DNA from: a virus
Reading direction: 5' to 3' (one strand)
Length of the DNA: 24,685 nucleotides
IMG/VR virus record: IMGVR_UViG_3300008267_000349
Span: 1 to 24,685 of that record
In this document: piece by piece, positions 2,177-24,685 of the stretch
Layout of the letters: every line of letters begins with the position of its first letter
How positions within the stretch are numbered: the stretch's first letter is position 1
Program-made: the position numbers and the translations under genes
Notes under the pieces: generated by a model
Databases searched by the model: none
Seen by the model: the letters and a program-made list of their open reading frames with translations, nothing else
Told to the model about the DNA's origin: nothing

Positions 2177-5100
2177 TTAACCTGCTGGGAATGCAATTGC
2201 ACGAACATCACGAATCTTTGGAACATCGATTGTATCTGTACCTGCCATTACAATCTTAATTGAGAAGGTTCTAAATGTTGAGAAACCGGTTGTATCAGTT
2301 GTATAACTAACAGAATTGTTTGCTACACCACCAGTTCCAGGTGCAAATACCAATTCACGATAATCATTTCGGTTAACAGCAACAAAGTTTTCGTTGCCAA
2401 GTTCTGTCATTAACTGATAGTTCTTATTATCGAACAAATCAGAATCGGACTTAGAAAGAATCTTGTAATAAACAAGTATTTTTGCATCAGCTGGTTTGAA
2501 AGCTGTTAAGTATACACGCAAATCACCCGAATCGAAACCATCATTCAAAATAATTTTACGGAGAATATAACGAACATAAGAGTTTCCGCCAAACTGTTTA
2601 TCTTCACCATTGTAAATTGCAACAGCACCAGAACCACCACCTGAGCCAGGCGTTAATGTGATTATAGGAGAAGTTGTATAACCAGAACCTGGATTTGTAA
2701 TGTAAACTGAATTAACTGTATTACTTACAACATTTGCCACAGCGGTTGCACCTGAACCACCACCGCCTGTAATAGTTACCGTAACATCACTAGTGTTTGC
2801 GTAACCTGTGCCTGATGAAGTAACAAATACCTCAGAATTTCTTAGTGGCAAATCATTGATGATATTACGAATTGTTAAAGCGCCAAAACGAGTTGAATCT
2901 ACAACTGGAGTAACTGCTGGATTCAATGAAGTCAATGTTGCATTTACAATCAAAGAGTTATTGCTTGTTGTAATTACACGGCGACCTCCGCCATCATCCA
3001 TGTAATAGTCTTTAAGTGGCGTAATTGGTTTAAAACCAGCTGAACCACCGCCAGCATCAACTACAGAATTAAATTGGTAAGATACAGACGTATTAGAAAT
3101 AACCACATCATTTGTGATTAGGTGCATTAAATCATATGGCACATTTGCAGCTGGTGCAATTGCTCTAAATCGCAATTGTGCAGGTGATGTTGAAAATACA
3201 TTTCGGTAAATTCTAAACAACATGTCTGAATTTTGATCAGCAGTCCAAGTAGAACCGTTTTGAGATAGGAATAGAGAACCACCATATGGCTGTTCTGAAA
3301 TCTGTCTTTGTTGGACAATATCTAACTTACCAATCTCAGCAATATAAGCTTCATACTTGTTTGAGTTGGAGAACAATACGAATGAATGTTCACCAGGCTG
3401 CATGTATACAGGTGCATCAAACTTAAACTCAGTATATTTTGTAGCATCATCCAAATCTGGAGAATCAGTTGTGTTAACTTTATCAGGAGTCAATACAACA
3501 GTACCATTTGGATAAATGATTGATGCAGATGGAACACCGTTAACCGTTGGCCTCAATTGCAATGTAACTGGAACAGTATCATCTTTTGTTTTAAAGCAAA
3601 CACTCAAACGACTTATATACACACCTTGTGGGTATGTTAATGGGTCAACTAAGAATGTTTGTGCAAGTGGATCAAACCATCCAGATATATCAGGATCTGG
3701 GATTCTTCTTTGTCCTATAATCCTAGAAATAGGTTGTTCTGCGTTTACCGCACTTCTTTGAATTGTTGGTTGTGTAATTGAAAGAATTGTTTCTTCTACA
3801 GTTTGAATTAAACCTTGTGCAAAGAATGAAGTATCTCCGTTTGTGGATGAAGTTACAACATCATTGATATTATTATCAATCAATCTTAAGCGTTTCTCAC
3901 CAATGCGGAAAGTGGAAGCAGGTATAGTAAATAAACCTGCAACATCACCTGCTGCGGTAGTTTTTAATCTGCCAATTGAGTATACTGAATTGTTTGCAAC
4001 TGGCGTTGTAGTCCAAGAAGATGAAATTGATGCCACTCTTGTAGCTGGATTATATGTTGAAATAGTTGCTTGTTGACCAGCACCAGTTCCTGAAACAACA
4101 AAGATTGTAGCTGCGTTATAATCGGTAATGTTATTGGCTGTTGTAGCATCCAAATCTAGTGTGATAGAAGATGCCGCAGCACCTTGACACAAACCACTAT
4201 AGTGTTCATAACCAACTATTCTAGCAGTTGTTCCTGTGCTTTGGCCAATCAAGTTGGCGGAAGCCAAGTTATATGATCCGCTAGGCTGGTTGTTAATAAT
4301 AAATGCTTCAGTATTTGAAGTTCTTACAATAACAGCCGTACCGTTTGTGGTTGAGGTTGTGTTATTGAAAATATTAACTAGTTCAAAATTACTTACCTCT
4401 GTGCGGTAATTTAATTTGTTTTCACGCAGAATAAACTTATTAGCCCGAGATGTAAAACTTTCAATCAATGTAGTATCAAAGAAAGGAAACATTGTGATAT
4501 TTGGTTTAAAATCAGAGCCAACAACTACAATACCTTTCTCACGCATAAACGGAATAATAGAAAAGTCTATAAGTCTATCACCAATACTTTGTGTGATGGT
4601 CTCTGGCACAACCCTAGAAACTATACCTGAACGTGTTGCTGTACCAAATTGTCTTGTAGTTTCAAGGTTGTCTTGTTCAGTTGTGACTGTTCTTCCTGTC
4701 CAGTTTTCTTGCCAATTGCCCCAAGTGAAATCAAAAGGAGATGTTGAGGATGTAATTTTATCCCATACATCTTTAGTACCACCAACATTAATAACAACTT
4801 GTGGCAGTCTATTTGTATCTAACCAAATATCTGTTGTTGGGTCAATAAAAACTTTACCAATATAACTAGTCACATTGAATGGGTTAACACTCAACGATCT
4901 AGAAGCTTTTGGTTGACTGATGAATGTGGTATCAGTTGTTGATATGATAATTGATGAACCATTTTGTTGGAAGCCAGATGAATTGGCCGCATCAAATTCC
5001 AATGTGATTGGTGTAATGTTAAATGATGGTCTCAATTCTTTTGCTTGTGAATCAATAGATGCACGATAGTCAACTTTTGCCACATCGGCAACTGAATGGC

Positions 5101-8100
5101 CATCAAAAGAATCAACAACAATACCATTTTTAAATCTAGGCAAGTTTGCAGAGTCCAAAATTGTCAAGTCTTGTTTAGAAATTGCGTTCTGTTCAAGTAG
5201 TGACAATGCTGTGTAATACTCAATATTTTCAACACGTTTTTCAATAGCACCAATGTCACGCATTGTGTATCTTCTGTGGTTGATATATTGTGTTGTAACA
5301 TTAGATGTGTTGGCAACATATGCAGGACTACGCAAGATATACAATGTCATAGCATTGTCTTTATCTTTTGGATCTTCTGGATATAAACTAGAGATGCCTT
5401 TAATAACTTCAAATGTTCTATCTTTGTTTAGAATAATTTTATCATGTCTTGGCAAATAATATTGATAACTCAAAATAATATCAGAACCATTTTCTGGAAT
5501 TTTTGGACCGGTTGTAGATGAGTCAACATCAAATGTTACAGTATTTGCCGTTGCAACAGTTGCCGCAGCACGAACTGGTCTAAAGTCTAAACAGTCACGG
5601 AGAGAATATTCAATACCATTGGTTGATGTATATGAACCCACATTCTCATAACCAAAAGCTGCATCATAAGAATCCACATTAAAGAATCCAGCACCAGATG
5701 ATGAGAACTTATCAAATTTGACAACGAGTGGACCGACTGGAGCAGAAACACCAGGTTTTAATTTAATAGATGCATGGTCATAATAAGAATCTCTTTGGCC
5801 ATTATCTAACGTGTACCTTGATGTAATATCAATAGCACTTGCCACATTGGCCTGTGTAATGTTTGTATTGTTAAAGTCTAATACGGAAACAACTCTAATT
5901 ACATCAGGAACATACAATGACTGAGATACTGTAGGTGACTTAACAACTGTGTTTGCCGAAATATGGAGTTGACCAGGTGTTGTGAATAGGTTTACGGCAC
6001 CATTACTGAAAAGATTTAAACCTGATGTTAATTGCAAATCTGTGTTTGCCTGCACGTATGTTTTCGTTTTCTCATTAGGAGAAGTGGAATCAATGGTTGC
6101 ATAGACGTTAGCAGTTAAATTCAAACCATTAGTAACTGTAATTCTTCTTGTGGCAATATCAACTGTAAACAAGTCAGTAGGAATTGTTTTACCAAGTTGA
6201 TATGAAGAAGTACCAGCATTTGTAACCACGACTTGATAATTTGATTGCCTTGTACTTGTGGAAGATGCTGTAGATAAAGCTTCGCCAGCACCTACTGACA
6301 ATGTTGGAGACAGGCCTGATGCAAATGTTAGCGACTCATACAATCTTCTATATGATAATGAGAGACCTGTAATTGTATTATTGGCAACAAAGTTTTCACC
6401 TAAAGCAAACAATAATTGTTCTGAAGTTGTATCAGAAATATAAGTGTCATCAAATGCCGTTGAGTGGTCTTTTGACCGGTCGTCAATATCAACCGCAGCA
6501 ACTCTTGCAGCTGCACCGGCGCCAGATGTAACAACAACAGACTTAACATCATTAAATTCAAAATCAATTGAGTATGTAGAAGCTGTTGTTAGTGGTGTAA
6601 TGAATGGCTCAGATAACTGAATTGTCTGATTTACGCCACTATAGTTAGTAATAATTTTTGCTAATTCTCCAGCGCCTGGACCTGAAGTAATTCTAAATTT
6701 GGCACCACGATAAGCATTATCGGTTGTTAAACGATTATTAGCCAATCCTAGTGTGTTTGCAATTTGAACATGTGTTATATTAATTGCACTATTTACGGAA
6801 CCGGTTAATGAACCAACATTTACATCTGTTAAAAATACCTTGTATTCATATGTTGAGGCATTAGATGTATTTGAAGTTGAATCAAATTGAACCGATTTAA
6901 TTCTAGCTGTACCAACTTTTGTATTTGAAATTGTTGCAGTGGATGTTACATTGATTGAACTGTTTGGAACACAATGTAGGTCTACTGTCTGGAGACTATT
7001 GATTGGCAACGTGCCATAGAGAGTATTAGCATAGACATAATATCCATAGTCGGCTGTAATACGCTTACCTGTTACAGAAGCTAATTCTCTTGGTTTTGGA
7101 ATATTAATTATTGTTGATCCAACTGTTTCAAGTTCATAACCATAAACATAAGCTTTACCTGGTGACAAGATAAGACTCATGTTAGCAGAGTTTGCAGATG
7201 ATGTTTCAATCGCTAATTTAAATGGTTTAACTGTGTAATTGCCAGATTCGTCATACGTTCTTCGAGCAAGAGTATCTTCCAATACTGCATAAATTGGAAA
7301 TCTATCGTACTTGGTCAAAGTGCCTTCTTCAATTCGAGCAAGTTCTATAAATTTTGTATCGTCTATAGATTCGAGACTTCTCATTGTAAGAGTCATTTGA
7401 ATCTTGTAACGGTCGGAACCTGGAGCTTGAAAGTTGGAGGCGTCTTGAGCTGGATCCAACAATGAAGTATCGGAAGTATAAGATACTGTTGATTCTGTAA
7501 TTTCAAAACCAATTCGTGCATTGGCTGTTTGTGAATACTTTGAAACGGCAATAGTTTGTGCATCCGTTTTAACAAAGAATCCTTCATAATAATATACGCC
7601 TTCATTGACTGAAAAAACTTGGCCAGTGCCAACACCTGCTGTAGCTATATTTGCAGATACGGTGTTAGTCTCAAAAGTTTTAATTGTGTTACCAGCTACA
7701 AATGGAGTGCCATAAATTTCTTTAATCAATAAAGTTTTAGGATCACCAGTGCCTGCGTCAGCATCAAAAGTTTTAAGTACAAAAGCTCTTTGCGTAGGAT
7801 TGGTATTATTATCAACGAGTGTTTTATCAGTAAAGTTACTAACTGTTACCGCAGAACCTAGAAAAGTTGAATCTAACTTTAAAGAAATTACATTTTGGAA
7901 AAAAGTTTGGCCACCTGTTACAACAGAGCCATTTTTAAATACATGATTACCAAATCTCTGTACTTGTTTCTGTAAAATTGTTTGAAGTTGTGTTAACTCA
8001 CGAGCCTGAACAGCATAGCCTGGCTTAAATAACATGCGAAGAAATTTCTTATCTTCATCATAGTCATCATAATATGGATTTACATTAAAATTGGTATCAA

Positions 8101-20920: not shown

Positions 20921-20929
20921 CTATTTATG
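20921..20929 (-). promoter_or_regulatory. T4-type late promoter-like motif at the divergent gap (CATAAATAG)
   Basis: The minus strand reads ATGACATAAATAGTATCTAG. The motif lies 25 bases before the gp48 ATG, a normal leader distance, so it is the best candidate for the main promoter of the leftward tail operon. Its CAT is the complement of the ATG start codon of the rightward gp4-type gene (20927-20929), so promoter and start codon are superimposed on opposite strands. Confidence 0.6.
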
Positions 20930-21358
20930 TCATATAAAGGAACTTTTTTACCAAAGAACCCATCCAAGTACAATGGAAATTCAAAAAATATCATATATCG
21001 TTCCAACTGGGAATTAAGGGTTATGAAGTATTTTGATGACCATCCAAATGTTATTTGGTGGGCATCCGAAGAGCTAACGATACCATACGTGTCTCCCATA
21101 GACAACAAAACGCACAGATACTTTCCAGACTTCATTGTAAAGATGCGTTTAAAAGATGGTAAGGTCACCACTTATATATTAGAGGTGAAACCATTGGCTC
21201 AAACCAAGATGCCTGTGCAAAAACGCAAGACCAAAAGATTCATTCAAGAGGCAGCAACATATGCGGTCAATCAGGAGAAATGGCGAGCTGCAGACCTTTT
21301 CTGTAGAGAACATGGATGGCAGTTCAAAGTTATCACGGAAAAAGAACTTGGTCTTTGA
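20927..21358 (+). CDS. gp4: Head completion protein gp4, PD-(D/E)xK nuclease-like fold
   Basis: 143 residues (T4 gp4 is 150). It has the TnsA-like nuclease layout: YRSNWELRVMKYFDDHPNV with Glu29, THRYFPDFIVKM with Pro67-Asp68, and YILEVKP with Glu86 and Lys88, the E...PD...ExK pattern of PD-(D/E)xK enzymes, then KTKRFIQEAATYAVNQEKWR. In T4, gp4 is needed to finish DNA-filled heads before tail joining. This ATG is the only sensible start (next Met is residue 33). There is no Shine-Dalgarno sequence, and upstream DNA is the antisense of gp48, so its promoter must lie within the gp48 start region or further away. It heads the rightward arm. Confidence 0.88.
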   Translation: MSYKGTFLPKNPSKYNGNSKNIIYRSNWELRVMKYFDDHPNVIWWASEELTIPYVSPIDNKTHRYFPDFIVKMRLKDGKVTTYILEVKPLAQTKMPVQKRKTKRFIQEAATYAVNQEKWRAADLFCREHGWQFKVITEKELGL

Positions 21359-22750: not shown

Positions 22751-23491
22751 ATGGCGTTACCAAAAATTGATGTGCCAACGTATGAAACAACTTTGATTTC
22801 ATCGGGTAAGAAAATAAAATATAGACCGTTTCTTGTAAAAGAACAAAAACTATTTCTGATGGCAGCACAAGCAGCTGATGAGAAAGAGACTATTGATGTT
22901 GTCAAACAAGTTTTAAATAACTGCATTATCACCGATATAGATGTTGATGATTTGCCAACATTTGACCTTGAATACTTATTCATGCAGCTTCGTGCTAGGT
23001 CTGTTGGTGAAGTTGTGAACTTAAAATACAACTGCAATAATATCGTTAAGGATGATAAGGATGAAGACAAAGTTTGTGGTGGTTTGGTTAAATTTGATCT
23101 ACATCTTCTTGAAATTGAACCTACACGAAGCGAAGAACATAACAATAAAATTGAAATTAGTGACAAACTAGGTATTGTAATGAAGTATCCAACTTTAAAA
23201 ATGATTGGCAATACAAAGAATTTACAAGATGAAAACATTGAAGTGGTCATAGATATGATCATTAAGTGCATTGATTATGTTTATGATGCAGATCAAATAT
23301 ACTATGCCAAAGATTCCACACAAGAAGAACTGATGGAGTTTTTAGAAAGTATGCAACAAGATGATCTTGAAAAAATTCAAAAGTTTTTTACTACCATGCC
23401 AAAGATTTCAAGGCCTTTGGATTTTAAATGTGGTAAATGTGGATATGAAGAAAAGATTGTCGTAGAAGGCATCCAAAATTTTTTCGTATAA
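22751..23491 (+). CDS. gp26: Baseplate hub assembly protein gp26 family (probable tail assembly chaperone)
   Basis: 246 residues (T4 gp26 is 208). The start MALPKIDVPTYETTLISSGK, then KYRPFLVKEQKLFLMA, VLNNCI and FDLEYLFMQLRARSVGEVVN, is characteristic of the T4 gp26 baseplate family. Cys95 and Cys109 flank an acidic loop, and Cys227-x2-Cys230 forms a knuckle (FKCGKCG); together they could bind zinc. AGGA lies 7 bases before the ATG. The last codons, IQNFFV, contain the slippery heptamer T TTT TTC, after which a -1 shift would open a 64-codon extension. In T4, gp26 helps hub assembly; here its frameshift and its place before a tape-measure-like gene suggest a chaperone for the tape measure. 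Confidence 0.85.
   Translation: MALPKIDVPTYETTLISSGKKIKYRPFLVKEQKLFLMAAQAADEKETIDVVKQVLNNCIITDIDVDDLPTFDLEYLFMQLRARSVGEVVNLKYNCNNIVKDDKDEDKVCGGLVKFDLHLLEIEPTRSEEHNNKIEISDKLGIVMKYPTLKMIGNTKNLQDENIEVVIDMIIKCIDYVYDADQIYYAKDSTQEELMEFLESMQQDDLEKIQKFFTTMPKISRPLDFKCGKCGYEEKIVVEGIQNFFV
23464..23469 (+). promoter_or_regulatory. Internal Shine-Dalgarno-like stimulator before the slip site
   Basis: AGAAGG lies within the gp26 coding sequence, ending 9 bases before the slippery heptamer. Shine-Dalgarno-like sequences at about this distance stimulate -1 frameshifting in bacteria (dnaX is the model case). No start codon follows at a suitable distance, so it does not look like an initiation site. Its function here is inferred from spacing. 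Confidence 0.4.
23479..23485 (+). promoter_or_regulatory. Probable -1 ribosomal frameshift site (T TTT TTC)
   Basis: In the gp26 frame the codons read AAT TTT TTC GTA TAA, giving a perfect X XXY YYZ heptamer two codons before the stop. A -1 slip re-pairs both tRNAs on TTT TTT and continues CGT ATA ATA TTT GGT into the downstream open frame. No strong stem or pseudoknot is visible after it; only a weak TACC-TTA-GGTA hairpin starts about 20 bases on. Confidence 0.7.
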
Positions 23492-23679
23492 TATTTGGTT
23501 ATGATACCTTAGGTAATTACTTTCAAACTAACTTTGCTTTAATGCAACATCACAAGTATAGTTTGACTGAATTGGATAATATGATACCTTGGGAAAGACA
23601 AGTTTACATTGATATGTTAGTGAAATTTTTAGAAGAAGAAAAAGAACGATTAAAAGCTCAACAGCAAGCGAGAAAATAA
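23485..23679 (+). CDS. Small gp51-position ORF, probable -1 frameshift extension of gp26
   Basis: This frame is open for 64 codons from the slip site: RIIFGYDTLGNYFQTNFALM, then QHHKYSLTELDNMIPWERQV and YIDMLVKFLEEEKERLKAQQ. The region before the first ATG (23542) already reads like protein, and that ATG has no Shine-Dalgarno sequence, so expression as a fusion of 309 residues with gp26 is more likely than independent initiation, which would give 45 residues. The end is a charged helix rich in Glu, Lys and Gln. In T4, gene 51 (hub assembly) directly follows 26; the position matches, but I cannot claim sequence homology to T4 gp51. Its stop is immediately followed by the next ATG (TAAATG). Confidence 0.75.
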   Translation, partial: RIIFGYDTLGNYFQTNFALMQHHKYSLTELDNMIPWERQVYIDMLVKFLEEEKERLKAQQQARK

Positions 23680-24685
23680 ATGGCAGATAAACAGTCCAGA
23701 TTAGCAGAGATTTACAAAGCCGAAAAATCTAAGGGTGGCGGACTAGCATCCACTTTAGGTAAACGAGCGCTTGAAAAAGTGGATCCAAGGCAATTCTTTA
23801 ATCAAAAAGGATTTATGGCTGCTGCTTTACCATCATTATTTAAATCGTATAGTGCAACACCAATTAAATCTGGTGGAAAAGTTGCCAGTTTAGGCAGTGA
23901 TTCATTATCTAGTAATGCTTTAGAAACAAAGTTAGATGTACTTATTGGTGAAACAAAAGATGTTAAAATAAACTCCAAACTTTCTGCTAAAAACTCAATG
24001 GTCTTGCCAGATATTGCAAGAGATATGAATGTGATGCGCCAAAATATACAGAAGCTGGTTAAATTACAAGGCGGAACTGCAGCTAAAGGTACAGACATGT
24101 ACTTTAAAAAATCAGGAGAAAGAGAAGCATCTTACGAATCACAATTTGGAAAAGAAAAATTTAAAACTAGTCCTACGCTAGTTGGTGATAAAAAGGAAGA
24201 AAAAAAAGAAGGTGGTATATTAGGATTATTATCAACACTTTTTGCACCACTATTAACACTTGGCGCAACAATTGCTTCAGCAATCACTGGAACATTAGCA
24301 ACATTATTTTCCCCAGATAATTTAGTAAAAGTATTTGGCCTTGGCTTAGATGTTATTAAGGGTATAGGCACCGCATTTCGTGTATTATTGCCTTTACTAA
24401 CAAATCCAGTATTTTTGTCAATTGTTGGCGGCCTACTGGCAGCAAAATGGTTAATGGATTTAATTGATAAGAAAAATTCAGAAGCTAATACAAAAGAAAA
24501 AACTGATTTGCGTATAGCTCAAGACAGGGGTAGTCAATCGTCAAAACTTGCAAGAAGAACTTTTTTAATAAATGATGAGTTGAAATCCTATCTAAAAGAT
24601 GATAGAACCGATGAAGAGCTATCCGACTTTACCTCAGGTGAAATAAGAACTAAAGATGAGTTGCGAGCTAAAATTGCTGAGGCTG
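23680..24685 (+). CDS. Partial large tail protein, candidate tape measure/hub protein (gp29 position)
   Basis: 335 residues are visible and the frame is open to the window edge. The N-terminal third is polar and helical (ADKQSRLAEIYKAEKSKGGG, DPRQFFNQKGFMAAALPSLF). A helix with MVLPDIARDMNVMRQNIQKL follows near residues 107-126. Residues about 179-262 hold hydrophobic segments (GGILGLLSTLFAPLLTLGAT, RVLLPLLTNPVFLSIVGGLL), then a charged helical stretch. Such hydrophobic stretches in a long helical protein suit a tape measure, which is ejected and can cross membranes. The start directly follows the stop of the frameshift extension, the usual place for a tape-measure gene. Another hub-interior protein is possible. 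The C-terminus is missing. Confidence 0.7.
   Translation, partial: MADKQSRLAEIYKAEKSKGGGLASTLGKRALEKVDPRQFFNQKGFMAAALPSLFKSYSATPIKSGGKVASLGSDSLSSNALETKLDVLIGETKDVKINSKLSAKNSMVLPDIARDMNVMRQNIQKLVKLQGGTAAKGTDMYFKKSGEREASYESQFGKEKFKTSPTLVGDKKEEKKEGGILGLLSTLFAPLLTLGATIASAITGTLATLFSPDNLVKVFGLGLDVIKGIGTAFRVLLPLLTNPVFLSIVGGLLAAKWLMDLIDKKNSEANTKEKTDLRIAQDRGSQSSKLARRTFLINDELKSYLKDDRTDEELSDFTSGEIRTKDELRAKIAEA

Follow-up and report, generated by a model that had tools for sequence, protein, structure and literature searches.

The window, by which we mean the whole 24,685-nt stretch of viral DNA analysed (IMG/VR record IMGVR_UViG_3300008267_000349, positions 1 to 24,685), carries a T4-like tail cluster with a gp4-like head-closure protein, a DNA end protector and a tail-tube-like protein. 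Within this cluster, the plus-strand gene at 22751-23491 encodes a 246-residue gp26 homologue, which matches the Pfam family PF12322 (T4_baseplate; E = 8e-65) and the PHROG family phrog_150 (E = 1.7e-71). Two further features of the cluster are recorded here in passing. The gp4-like protein (20927-21358) matches a TnsA-like endonuclease N-terminal domain (PF08722, 3.8e-25), and the C-terminal half of the gp26 homologue (23030-23450) contains paired cysteines (CGKCG) resembling a zinc ribbon, near the slip site described below; the C-terminal cysteine pair is absent in S-PM2-type relatives.

The gp26 frame ends with the codons GTA GAA GGC ATC CAA AAT TTT TTC GTA TAA, the stop occupying 23489-23491. 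One codon 5' of this stop, and in the gp26 frame, lies the slippery heptamer T_TTT_TTC (23479-23485, plus strand), which has the X_XXY_YYZ form of a -1 frameshift cassette. A second candidate, A_AAT_TTT (23476-23482), overlaps it, and slippage there would give an identical product. Upstream, and separated from the heptamer by 9 bases, is the Shine-Dalgarno-like element AGAAGG (23464-23469, plus strand), a likely stimulator of the kind found in some cassettes. The -1 frame is closed by a TGA at 23446, which leaves the vicinity of the slip site as the only place of entry; from there it is open for 64 codons (23485-23676) up to a stop at 23677-23679. The preliminary description of this DNA had pointed to the heptamer, the AGAAGG element and the 64-codon frame, and all three are present; the product lengths that it predicted, 246 and 309 residues, follow from them (245 + 64 for the fusion). 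As a single sequence, however, the arrangement is only suggestive, because TTTTTTC occurs 16 times on the two strands of this AT-rich window, so that the heptamer alone is not rare, and because an open run of 64 codons has a chance probability of p ~0.006. We consider that it is conservation, and not the single sequence, that exceeds chance and so decides the matter.

The extension read in the -1 frame (23485-23679, plus strand; RIIFGYD...QQQARK) is a gp51 tail. It aligns to positions 58-119 of the 121-position profile phrog_634 (E = 1.3e-27), and also matches the C-terminal end of the gp26-family profile phrog_150 (E = 1.7e-4), which indicates that this profile extends past the gp26 stop and into the tail. 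Together, the locus thus holds both the PF12322 domain and the gp51 tail of the gp26 and gp51 proteins of T4-like phages. In tblastn searches the tail matched 524 phage records, with most alignments starting at its residue 1. In one relative (L008), an in-frame 21-nt deletion removes SLTELDN from the tail and leaves the -1 frame intact.

From viral contigs and annotated phages we assembled 183 loci, selected on having the heptamer, in which a homologous -1 tail accompanies an in-frame T_TTT_TT(C/T/G) near the end of gp26. Clustered by gp26 identity, they fall into 81 groups at a threshold of 90% and into 16 at 50%; the clade of the window itself is represented only by metagenomic contigs. The heptamer lies exactly one codon before the gp26 stop in 167 of the 183 loci, and sixteen additional loci (L228-L243) agree with this pattern. 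Elsewhere in the 81 non-redundant gp26 genes, T_TTT_TTY occurs in frame only 4 times in 18,879 codons, and at other Phe-Phe pairs of these genes in 4 of 79 cases. The codon preceding TTT varies (AAT, AGT, TCT, GAT, GCT) and always ends in T. An alignment of the junction across relatives, which the preliminary description had proposed as a check, thus shows the heptamer kept and the -1 frame open from the slip site through the tail.

The first ATG of the -1 frame in the window lies at 23542-23544 on the plus strand, and the separate proteins annotated in GenBank and RefSeq for S-PM2, HTVC008M, P-SSM2 and Mosig begin at an ATG of this kind, which in cyanophages is near codon 3. An independently initiated gp51 tail is nonetheless very unlikely. 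The ATG at 23542 has no Shine-Dalgarno sequence (best anti-SD energy +2.2 kcal/mol), as the preliminary description had noted, and it is not conserved, being lost in relatives such as L046, L106 and L153. Among the 81 relatives, the first -1 ATG falls at codon 18 or 19 (counted from zero) in 46 and at codon 2 or 3 in 26. A Shine-Dalgarno sequence precedes it in 0/46 and 0/26 of these, respectively, compared with 56% of gp26 starts, and so relatives with a ribosome site for the small ORF, which would have spoken against frameshifting, did not turn up. Furthermore, protein constraint acts on the 17 codons that precede the ATG. Their dN/dS across relatives is 0.14 in the -1 frame, whereas the other two frames give 1.25 and 1.41. 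This result bears out the earlier view that the frame reads as protein well ahead of its first ATG. A start at 23542 would also discard residues homologous to T4 gp51. The tail is thus coding from the slip site onwards and has no start of its own, and with no Shine-Dalgarno sequence and with constraint upstream we reject initiation at 23542 and regard this ATG as an internal methionine.

Termination-reinitiation, in which ribosomes finishing gp26 restart in the -1 frame and release a free gp51 tail, has some points in its favour: stop and start codons overlap (TAATG) in some Ackermannviridae and Vibrio phages, and an ATG follows the slip site by 3-4 codons in 26/81 relatives. In the window, however, no ATG, GTG or TTG occurs within the tail's first 19 codons, and reinitiation would give the heptamer no reason for being conserved. 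Pelagibacter phage Mosig allows the two mechanisms to be told apart, since its gp26 stop lies 8 codons 3' of the heptamer. Homology in the -1 frame begins at the heptamer, so that the conserved tail starts 8 codons before the stop at which reinitiation would take place. On this junction reinitiation was rejected, and we hold it to be extremely unlikely. A one-base error in a run of T is a common artefact that could split one long gene into two, but the same split and the same frame relation recur in 183 loci, isolate genomes included, and this conservation refutes a sequencing or assembly error, the probability of which is practically nil. Reading in the +1 frame was also rejected, as that frame is soon closed in nearly all relatives.

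Comparison across relatives strongly supports programmed -1 frameshifting, and we assign a probability of about 0.92 to the reading in which slippage at T_TTT_TTC yields a gp26-gp51 fusion and thereby a chaperone pair like lambda G and GT. In the proposed mechanism, most ribosomes translating gp26 would terminate at 23489-23491 and release the 246-residue, G-like short protein. A fraction would pause at T_TTT_TTC, probably aided by pairing of AGAAGG with 16S rRNA, and slip back by one base as tRNA-Phe re-pairs on TTT TTT. The slipped ribosomes would then read the gp51 tail to 23679 and produce a 309-residue, GT-like fusion. The short and long forms may then work as paired tail-assembly chaperones of the hub and the tape-measure protein, and T4-type phages would obtain the same two proteins from the paralogous genes 26 and 51.

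The tail is present without the heptamer at a few loci, namely in Ackermannviridae (L097, L099, L100) and Pseudomonas phage Cygsa01; two Vibrio phages and phage Kuja also lack the heptamer and show weaker tail matches. The Ackermannviridae gp26 homologues (L099, L100, L210-L227) carry the same -1 tail and no T_TTT_TTY, in place of which the gene ends with an invariant GAR ATT TTC ATY TAA. The slip site of T7 gene 10 is G_GTT_TTC, which this sequence resembles. The junction has no ATG in 15/18 of the Ackermannviridae loci from viral contigs.

Both kinds of stimulator known from dnaX-type cassettes, in which a slippery heptamer is accompanied by a Shine-Dalgarno-like element ~10 bases upstream and a hairpin downstream, were evaluated across relatives. 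For the upstream element, the median anti-SD energy in the 81 relatives is -5.5 kcal/mol at the site and -1.1 elsewhere in the gene. Its mean of -5.8 lies below the -4.8 of synonymously recoded sequences (Wilcoxon p = 1e-4), so the element is modestly stronger than these. Part of the nucleotide conservation here, including that of the element, reflects protein constraint, because Phe-Phe and the upstream Gly are also kept in T4-type gp26. Downstream, a hairpin begins ~6 nt 3' of the heptamer in S-PM2-type phages. Tested against synonymous recodings it has z = -2.97 (n=38), with p<0.05 in 84% of cases, and hairpins are also found in several relatives beyond this group. Different sub-clades carry different hairpins at one and the same place. 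Support for these hairpins comes from the synonymous-recoding test, because little column-wise covariation is seen inside a sub-clade; cyanophage lineages seem to have evolved stimulatory hairpins of their own at a shared position. In the clade of the window, the same test was not significant (mean z = -0.55, n=28; window z = -0.53) and RNAalifold gave no structure downstream of the slip site, so a hairpin in the window is not supported. The window cassette therefore shares the upstream element with the dnaX type and differs from it in its T-rich heptamer and in the hairpin, none having been found in the window clade.

The relation to T4-type phages helps to identify the two products. Enteric T4-type gp51 (250 aa) consists of a PF12322 domain at residues 1-201 (4.6e-59) followed by the gp51 tail, and it is colinear over its full length with the predicted gp26-gp51 fusions, with no break at the junction. 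T4-type gp26, in turn, is homologous over its length to the unshifted product and ends where that product ends. Genes 26 and 51 of these phages are neighbours in divergent orientation and have no slip site, in contrast to the single gene with its slip site in the window. Most T4-type gp26 proteins retain Phe-Phe, encoded as TTC TTT, and for this reason lack the heptamer. From the colinearity and the shared end it follows that the short and long proteins come from two paralogous genes in T4-type phages and would come from one gene in their aquatic relatives. Cyanophage gp51 was reported by Sullivan et al. (2010) to be without approximately the first 200 residues of T4 gp51 (PMC3037559), which would be because frameshifting supplies them. 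T4 gp26 and gp51, annotated as 'baseplate hub assembly catalyst', are listed as hub assembly chaperones, of which gp51 is required and absent from the particle (PMC3004832).

The preliminary description had compared gp26 and the gp51 tail with lambda G and GT, and the comparison gains strength from T4-type gp51 being colinear with the fusion along its whole length. The predicted 246- and 309-residue products are a short and a longer form with a common N-terminus, and the locus resembles that of lambda in its short ORF, a slip site near the end of that ORF, a -1 tail without a start and an adjoining tape-measure candidate. It differs in the slip site itself, which in lambda is G_GGA_AAG. Judged by architecture and position, the two forms fit a G/GT-type tail-assembly chaperone pair. 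Tail-assembly chaperones made by -1 frameshifting, lambda G/GT among them, were described by Xu, Hendrix & Duda (2004), as cited in PMC9024508. Against the solved tail-assembly chaperones, gp26 gave no significant sequence match. AlphaFold2 models were of high confidence (gp26 mean pLDDT 86; second model pLDDT 90), and Foldseek comparison of gp26 with solved chaperones was not significant (HK97 2OB9, E = 0.73; YqbN 3KLU, E = 3.2). Fold comparison was therefore dropped as proof of membership.

The next ORF (23680-24685, plus strand) continues beyond the end of the window, and its ATG abuts the -1 stop (TAAATG). By position alone it is a tape-measure candidate. It is 698 aa long in contigs with an identical gp26 (L001/L002) and 698-840 aa in close relatives, and the closed ORFs of relatives range from 573 to 904 aa; in HTVC008M the annotated tape measure lies two genes on. 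In L001, C-terminal residues 435-644 of this ORF (3930-6023) give a partial match to phrog_90, labelled endolysin (E = 6.5e-22).

In most relatives the ATG of the next ORF abuts or overlaps the -1 stop, and in the window and S-PM2 clades it usually has no strong Shine-Dalgarno sequence. Within the window clade, the distance from the -1 stop to this ATG is -1 to 3 in 27/28 loci, and a strong Shine-Dalgarno sequence is missing in 27/28, in a clade in which 96% of gp26 starts have one. Frameshifting might conceivably also set the output of the tape measure, if its translation depended on slipped ribosomes and its ratio to the long chaperone were fixed in this way, although we consider this doubtful. 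Within the window itself the evidence is weak (best anti-SD energy -4.2 at the start of the next ORF), because several other genes of the window also lack a strong Shine-Dalgarno sequence.

Frameshifting at a T4-type gp26 had been taken by the preliminary description to be undescribed, which does not hold. On chaperone genes of T4-like phages, PMC10885494 and PMC12846349 both refer to Vladimirov, Gautam & Davidson (Virology 2022, 566:9-15), and it is through these citing papers that the content of the study is given here. According to PMC12846349, the gene for the short chaperone of such phages is known to carry poly-T -1 slip sites, and according to PMC10885494 some of them have a separate short gene and a long fusion gene. 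As described there, the poly-T slip site and the split-gene arrangement match what we find in the window and in T4-type phages, respectively. A search of the open-access literature for a frameshift under the names gp26 and gp51 returned nothing relevant. The chaperone genes of the 2022 study are reportedly those of gp26 and gp51, an equation that we make partly by inference.

On the strength of these citing papers, a frameshifted chaperone in T4-like phages appears not to be new in kind, and the window adds a member. The stimulator analysis, the alternative site in Ackermannviridae and the putative tape-measure coupling are additions, which the 2022 study may already contain. Relative to that record as cited, the gain lies in wider sampling, quantification, likely stimulators and the repair of annotation, since the phage records examined that match the tail have it either annotated as a separate gene or left unannotated. 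Among these very abundant aquatic phages, what has passed for a tiny, free 'hub assembly catalyst' would instead be the C-terminal part of a fusion. One protein pair would thus be made in two ways, by frameshifting or from two paralogous genes.
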